Assembly: GCA_023512255.1 (NCBI GenBank)
Contig: JAILZY010000054.1
Span: 1-24,439, forward strand
Source of the DNA: a bacterium
GTDB lineage: Bacteria; SZUA-182; DTGQ01
Direction of reading: 5' to 3'
Length of the DNA: 24,439 nucleotides
Shown here: positions 794 through 24,191 of the stretch, piece by piece
How positions within the stretch are numbered: the first letter of the stretch is position 1
Layout of the letters: each line of letters begins with the position of its first letter
Made by a program: the position numbers and the translations under genes
The notes under the pieces: generated by a model
Database searches by the model: none
Seen by the model: only the letters and a program-made list of their open reading frames with translations
Told to the model about the DNA's origin: nothing

Positions 794-965
794 CAGATGT
801 TCCCCATCTTTAATGCCCTTTTATTTGGAAGGAACCCTTTTAAAAAAGGGTTCCTTCCAAACCATCCTCCTAAAATTTTAATTTATAATTAAAGTTTTAG
901 GAAAGGGGTTTTAAGGGGAAAACCCTTTTTCAAAAGGGTTTTCCCCTTGAGATGGGGAATATCTG
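794..965. repeat. Nested palindromic element with three hairpins inside an outer stem
   Basis: Four inverted repeats are nested. The outer arms at 794-809 and 950-965 pair over 16 bp with one G-U-type mismatch. Inside are a perfect 18-bp stem with a 2-base loop (824-841/844-861), a 15-bp stem with one mismatch and a 3-base loop (869-883/887-901), and a perfect 17-bp stem with a 2-base loop (913-929/932-948). The strand could fold into a cloverleaf. The first and third hairpins share the AAAAGGGTT arm, so alternative pairings are possible. It lies between two convergent genes and has no ORF. It resembles a REP/BIME or MITE-type intergenic repeat, but I do not recognise the family. Confidence 0.75.
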
Positions 966-23420: not shown

Positions 23421-24191
23421 ATGAGTATCCCTAAGATAAAAATTTTCCTGATGATTCCCTTATTCCTCGTTATTTTGGTATTTACTGGATTCCAGAGAAC
23501 GGCTTATGCATACTATGGCCTGGGTGGATTATATGGCGGGCTTTATGGCCTGGGGCTTTATGGTGGTTTATATGGCGGCCTGTACGGAGGTCTGTACGGC
23601 CTCGGGTTGTATGGCGGCCTGTACGGCGGCCTCTATGGCGGCCTCTACGGTGGATTATATGGCGGGCTCTATGGCCTGGGGCTGTACAGTCCTTTTGGCT
23701 TACAGAATATGTACTATTCGATCGAGACAGGCGGTGGCCTAACCTATCAGGTGCCATTCCTGCAAATCGCTCCGCTGCTTGGCATAGCCGGGCTGTACAA
23801 CTCTCTGTTCCCCAATTTGTTCAATCCCGCTGGTCCAGCAGGTGCTGAGCAAACCGGTACCTGGTCAGGAACCTGGACCTCGGGTCTGGTCAGTGGCCCC
23901 ATAACTCTCAACCTGGTAGTAGATCCGCTCTTTGGGACCTTGAGCGGCTACGTCCAATTGCTGGGCAACCCATACCTTGGAGCCCTCGTTTCTGTTACCG
24001 GTACGCAATTGAACAGCCAGATCTTCCTCGATGGTTCGGGTATTGGCATCGGCAGTCAGACCATCAAGCTTGAGGTTATCGGAACTCTGACCTCAACTAC
24101 GACCATGACCGGTACCTATACCATGATCAACAGCACCTCGGTTATCGATACGGGAAGCTTCAACGCTACCTTAGGTGCGCCTGTAGTTTAA
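23421..24191 (+). CDS. Secreted Gly-Leu-Tyr repeat protein with a C-terminal beta domain (GLYG protein 2)
   Basis: ATG 23421 lies 10 nt after AAGGAGGA (23403-23410). An overlapping ATG at 23411 gives only seven codons. The 256-aa product has a Sec signal peptide (1-30, Ala-Tyr-Ala end), and the mature chain begins Tyr-Tyr-Gly-Leu exactly as in the gene at 281. Residues 31-90 hold 12 Leu-Tyr-Gly units, mainly the four-residue GLYG spacing, ending in LYSPFG. Both paralogues contain LYSP. Residues about 91-140 are a hydrophobic Gly/Pro/Asn linker. Residues 146-256 look like a lipocalin-like or antiparallel beta domain (GTWSGTWTSG, then repeated Thr/Gly/Leu strands, then MTGTYTMINS and DTGSFNATLG), a pattern seen in exported bacterial proteins of unknown function. 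A surface role is inference. Confidence 0.8.
   Translation: MSIPKIKIFLMIPLFLVILVFTGFQRTAYAYYGLGGLYGGLYGLGLYGGLYGGLYGGLYGLGLYGGLYGGLYGGLYGGLYGGLYGLGLYSPFGLQNMYYSIETGGGLTYQVPFLQIAPLLGIAGLYNSLFPNLFNPAGPAGAEQTGTWSGTWTSGLVSGPITLNLVVDPLFGTLSGYVQLLGNPYLGALVSVTGTQLNSQIFLDGSGIGIGSQTIKLEVIGTLTSTTTMTGTYTMINSTSVIDTGSFNATLGAPVV

Follow-up and report, generated by a model that had tools for sequence, protein, structure and literature searches.

A probably mobile, paired palindromic repeat with a new tag and REP-like architecture in an uncultured bacterium

Among described bacterial repeats, the closest to the sequence considered here are REPs of the GTAG and CGTC super-families, tagged short hairpins of 20–40 nt that are intergenic and in high copy, and that form opposite-orientation dimers with structured or variable spacers (PMC3733652). 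Dimers of unequal partners have been described, and the CGTC super-family is without a known transposase in the published survey (PMC3733652). A REPIN is a mobile dimer built from a pair of inverted REP-like units (PMC3116915), while the enterobacterial RU-1, RU-2, and RU-3 are intergenic mobile repeats of 100–170 bp, likened to the present one by description and size, not by sequence (PMC2759123). The locus lies in a 24,439-nt stretch (contig JAILZY010000054.1, positions 1–24,439; GTDB lineage SZUA-182, DTGQ01), referred to below as the window. Its positions 822–949 carry an element with all of the REP features just listed, including the unequal partners, and with the dimeric form of REPINs. 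It differs in its tag, which is AAAGTTTTNGG rather than GTAG or CGTC; in its longer unit, about 52–60 nt; in the absence of a RAYT flanked by or adjoining any unit examined; and in its carriers, which are Ruminococcus, Acidobacteriota, Aminicenantes, Magnetomicrobium, and a small uncultured phylum. GTAG/CTAC occurs anywhere in just 5 of 166 units and CGTC/GACG in one, so that neither serves as the tag. As a short tagged palindrome in high copy, extragenic, and found both as inverted dimers and as solo units, the element is a REP/REPIN in the wide sense of the term. No earlier description of AAAGTTTTNGG-tagged repeats, or of the tag in print, was found in a limited search of the open-licence literature, and the comparison overall points to an undescribed relative of REP repeats.

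A first-pass annotation of the window had described four palindromes at 794–965 as one nested, cloverleaf-like set beyond what chance would produce. All four were located. HP-A (824–861, arms 824–841/844–861) has an 18-bp stem and HP-B (913–948, arms 913–929/932–948) a 17-bp stem with 2 nt between its arms, both with 100% pairing; the middle hairpin is at 869–901 (arms 869–883/887–901), and the outer stem pairs 794–809 with 950–965 over 16 bp at 94%. The first and third hairpins do share arm sequence, 95% over 20 nt. Folding energy as DNA is −59.3 kcal/mol, compared with −21.6 ± 3.1 kcal/mol in shuffles (z −12.1), and positions 780–1080 folded as RNA give a z of −10.6 against shuffles; the palindromes are real. 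The nesting stands in part: all four palindromes exist, but the inner three are repeated together elsewhere in the genome, without the outer stem. The palindromes of the window are thus two layers, an inner repeat at ~822–949 and a separate outer stem.

The inner repeat (822–949, + strand, oriented from HP-A to HP-B) is a dimer of two inverted tagged hairpin units. Its limits are common to 46 further paired copies, and beyond the terminal TT..GGAAGG and CCCCTT the flanking sequence turns random at once, giving sharp boundaries; there is no gene inside. Each unit consists of the near-invariant 11-nt tag AAAGTTTTNGG, a linker, and a hairpin around AACCCTTTTTCAAAAGGGTT. Half unit A, the tag plus HP-A, occupies 824–879 on the − strand, and half unit B, the tag AAAGTTTTAGG plus HP-B, is in the opposite orientation at 891–948 on the + strand, as delineated from tag statistics in foreign hairpins and a cross-genome alignment. 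The two units have slightly different stems and face each other tag to tag. Pairing of the inverted tags (CCTAAAATTTT at 869–879 and AAAGTTTTAGG at 891–901) makes the middle hairpin, with a hypervariable palindromic A/T tip between them, for three hairpins in total. The order is constant in the 30 own-genome copies read with flanks: HP-A, spacer AAACCATCCT, CCTAAAACTTT, variable A/T tip, AAAGTTTTAGG, spacer, HP-B. Short tips among 20 parsed copies show 90% symmetric pairing, compared with 48% in shuffles, and 19 of the 20 parsed tips are distinct. Four copies have a longer, non-palindromic middle. A 161–164 bp form with a shared middle of this kind (L201:12859-13022, L209:4829-4992, L213:4822-4983, and L226:4880-5040) is possibly an older form of the element. 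The terminal-hairpin half is duplicated outward on nine A sides and five B sides (14 flagged among 47 paired copies), and in one case (L022) the outward duplicate has the same variant base as the adjoining arm, which suggests hairpin-templated copying. In the window, TGCCCTTTTA (814–823, + strand), adjoining HP-A, may be a decayed half-arm duplication like those beside some other copies (compare L027).

The genome (G000) is 3.83 Mb in 172 contigs. A DNA search of it with positions 785–1030 gave 40 scored places, nearly all spanning 824–948 without the outer arms. There are at least 50 copies of the paired-hairpin repeat; the exact full HP-A stem is found at 58 sites, the middle stem at 34, and tag-plus-hairpin units number 108 (51 + 57), with none for a reversed-pattern control. 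Of 47 paired copies, 45 are intergenic, one is within an ORF call, and one is at a contig edge. Neighbouring genes are in tandem for 26, divergent for 11, and convergent for 8; gene contexts come from simple ORF calls, so these placement counts are approximate. Many copies begin within 20 bp of a stop codon. The first-pass annotation had also looked to flanking target duplications; none was found at the 47 paired copies, the longest flank repeat being 4.45 compared with 4.35 in shuffled pairs.

A sister species of the same genus (G001), with about 71–84% DNA identity in matched stretches (about 80%), gave no match to the element by blastn or by pattern. None is present beside its orthologues of either window neighbour gene, gene order being rearranged there, and no exact empty site was recovered through joined flanks in synteny too broken for it. 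One of these neighbours encodes a protein of GLYG(M/G)-type repeats, and its closest match in the sister species sits elsewhere, without the element. The window has two such genes, at 263–790 and 23421–24191, both for secreted-looking proteins; the first has no Pfam or NCBIfam family, and many related stretches are found in the sister species. On the other side, a 433-aa gene has its own ordinary terminator-like hairpin, GGGCTGCC..GGCAGCCC, at 976–1017 on the − strand, independent of the element. It went unflagged by a consensus terminator scan, probably because its loop is above the limit of the scan. The same hairpin adjoins the orthologous gene of the sister species, where the element is missing; the element is therefore lineage-specific here and the 433-aa gene does not need it to end its transcript.

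Farther afield, a strict pattern run on 386 genomes spread over the domain was found only in G000, in G007 of the same class, and in G040 of another lineage; paired forms are present in the latter two as well. In a genome scan by name, the matches listed were mostly Ruminococcus, with others in Acidobacteriota, Aminicenantes, Magnetomicrobium, and Desulfovibrio. Tag-plus-hairpin copies numbered 70 in an Aminicenantes MAG, 63 in an Acidobacteriota MAG, 41 in R. flavefaciens FD-1, 28 in Ruminococcus YE71, 15 in YRD2003, 10 in a Magnetomicrobium MAG, 7 in XPD3002, and 4 in FC2018; Neglectibacter and Desulfovibrio had none, nor did reversed-pattern controls in foreign genomes. Solo units predominate in the Acidobacteriota and Aminicenantes loci read, some of them directly downstream of a stop codon or immediately ahead of a start codon. 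Plasmids and phages gave no match to the Ruminococcus-type consensus. Some Ruminococcus hairpins (L081, L102, L103, L106, L112, L167, and L168) contain an additional TGACTCCCCGCAGTGCGGGGAGATGTCACGCAGTGACAGAGGGGAC block within one of their arms, which looks like another, nested repeat. Solo units at L088, L108, L130, L144, L152, L157, L162, and L183 have GCCGCCGGAGGC or TCGCCGAAGGC as a constant terminal tail, which may be a second signal.

Because it is multi-copy, intergenic, sharply bounded, gene-less, without target duplication, and absent in the sister species, window 822–949 is most likely a mobile palindromic repeat of the non-autonomous type, behaving as REP dimers do (REPIN/BIME) and dependent on a trans-acting enzyme for its spread. 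The earlier suggestion of a mobile REP/MITE-type repeat is borne out to this extent, with relatives in other phyla besides.

The enzyme was sought around the repeats. No recurrent mobility gene was evident among 464 flanking ORFs, the recurrent neighbours being only Ruminococcus secreted proteins and ordinary genes, and the fetched loci contained neither a long version of the element carrying a gene nor an insertion sequence using its hairpins as ends. Y1/RAYT genes were considered as a linked mover and set aside, as Y1 domains do not track the element (one in G000, none in G040, and six in the element-free sister species). Hairpin hits led to six genomes from which six Y1 loci were retrieved; none of these has a unit near its Y1 gene, and no RAYT was flanked by AAAGTTTTNGG-tagged units at the fetched Y1 loci, a negative limited by the incompleteness of the MAGs. 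The sole Y1 domain found in G000 is in frame within a DNA-methylase-like gene (L238:1330-2943; G000:C83) surrounded by AGCCTGCTGGAAGCAGGCT repeats, which on the other strand read GTAGAGCCTGCTTCCAGCAGGCT, a GTAG-type REP pattern. Judged from these surroundings, this RAYT-like gene appears to go with a repeat different from the AAAGTTTTNGG-tagged units.

IS200/IS605-type elements leave no target duplication, and the same is true of the element. They are further alike in having hairpins near their ends (HUH Y1; background in PMC6006769); unlike them, the element does not encode a transposase, and the flanks of its paired copies show no fixed target tetranucleotide. In a refinement of the mobile-repeat reading, the element would be a genuine REP/REPIN whose mover, a HUH tyrosine transposase of the RAYT type, has escaped view by acting in trans or by being absent from the MAGs. 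The element's architecture, its unequal dimers and lack of target duplication, and its role as an insertion hot spot (below) all agree with reports on REPs, but with GTAG and CGTC so rare in the units and neither the tag, the one RAYT-like gene of the genome among GTAG-type palindromes, and no RAYT-like gene in G040, we regard this refinement as possible and somewhat doubtful.

The stems vary in a compensatory way. Within the genome, 18 double-changed cells were counted, compared with 5.8 in shuffles, and across genomes 23 compared with 8.1; the arms compensate in both alignments and the sequence is multi-copy, the two points on which the first-pass annotation had made its repeat and RNA readings depend. 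In the 30-sequence cross-genome alignment the tag is nearly invariant while outer pairs of the stem vary on both sides. Sequences were picked for this alignment by a near-exact inner core and its rows chosen to contain the tag, so conservation of the core partly reflects selection; unaffected by the choice of rows, the tag was found upstream in 65 of 98 foreign hairpins located by core alone and in 0 of 98 shuffled flanks. A control with the structure slid by +1 gave about equal covariation (0.175, compared with 0.158 unslid) because some genomes have a one-base bulge, with fewer paired cells (81.6% compared with 95.0%).

This covariation, together with the very stable fold and the many starts close to stop codons, could be read as a structured RNA or bidirectional terminator, under selection as RNA and multiplied through duplication. 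Such a structured RNA was one reading of the first-pass annotation, but covariation fits DNA hairpins equally, and G-T and A-C mismatches are similar in number (4 and 7, small counts) and look strand-symmetric. Every orientation class is occupied, including the divergent one (11 of 47). Covariance models gave no Rfam match to the element at the gathering score, the consensus scan found no T-tract terminator at it, the 433-aa gene retains its own conserved hairpin, and the sister species does without the element, all of which make an RNA-level explanation unlikely.

The outer stem has a different origin. Its left arm (794–813, + strand) is a 19-of-20 match to one end of a high-copy insertion sequence, and its right arm (950–965, − strand) is a diverged copy of the same end (CAGATATTCCCCATCT). 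The end pattern (CAGATRTTCCCCAT plus the next bases) occurs 96 times in G000. In nearly every case it sits ~55 bp from the end of a contig, with either of two constant sequences after it; these are the ends of a very high-copy insertion sequence at which the assembly is broken. This insertion sequence, with end CAGATGTTCCCCAT, is seen for example at L297:1501-1990. For its transposase fragment Pfam gave no family, and NCBIfam only a weak hint of IS1634 (E 0.12). A similar end lies beside a half element in L196/L073, there are no such ends on the other paired copies, and no duplication flanks the inverted outer ends in the window. From these matches, the outer stem seems to be a separate relic, the ends of the high-copy insertion sequence flanking this copy; the inverted ends, together with the hairpin element they enclose, could represent a mini-MITE or the remains of an IS. 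Of 42 ends of the insertion sequence, 4 fall within a hairpin unit or abut one (p about 4e-6 if placement were random), and insertion into REPs is reported for ISPpu9 (PMC8450116).

With its multiple gene-less copies, roughly symmetric ends, and a bracketing pair of IS ends in the window, the element might be taken for a MITE of the classical kind, bounded by terminal inverted repeats and mobilized by the DDE transposase of a full-length insertion sequence. Against this, the target site duplication of a MITE is missing, the IS ends are not on other paired copies, half units also occur alone, and the fetched loci gave no insertion sequence that ends in these hairpins, which leaves it quite unlikely. 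That the whole of 794–965 is one cloverleaf unit, as the first-pass annotation implied and as the good 16-bp pair enclosing the rest would favour, is very improbable and is refuted for the family, the outer stem being missing from other copies and its arms matching insertion-sequence ends.

If the element is a mobile REP-like dimer, it would spread from single-stranded DNA such as the lagging strand. A trans-acting enzyme would read the hairpins there and cut at or near the tag or the hairpin base. The cut strand would be joined elsewhere without duplicating the target, and the stems would stay paired because the hairpin is the enzyme's substrate. Hairpin-templated copying may then regenerate the tips and give rise to the terminal duplications of a half arm.

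Few repeats are as common in bacteria as those of the REP type. The AAAGTTTTNGG-tagged hairpins might tentatively be placed beside them as a third large cross-phylum super-family of tagged palindromic repeats, one moved by a non-RAYT enzyme. The stems covary and the tag is nearly letter-identical in rumen Ruminococcus, Acidobacteriota, Aminicenantes, and a small uncultured phylum, which implies that it either spread widely by horizontal transfer or is an ancient recognition signal under constraint, and the AAAGTTTTNGG-tagged unit offers a defined sequence signal for finding the enzyme.
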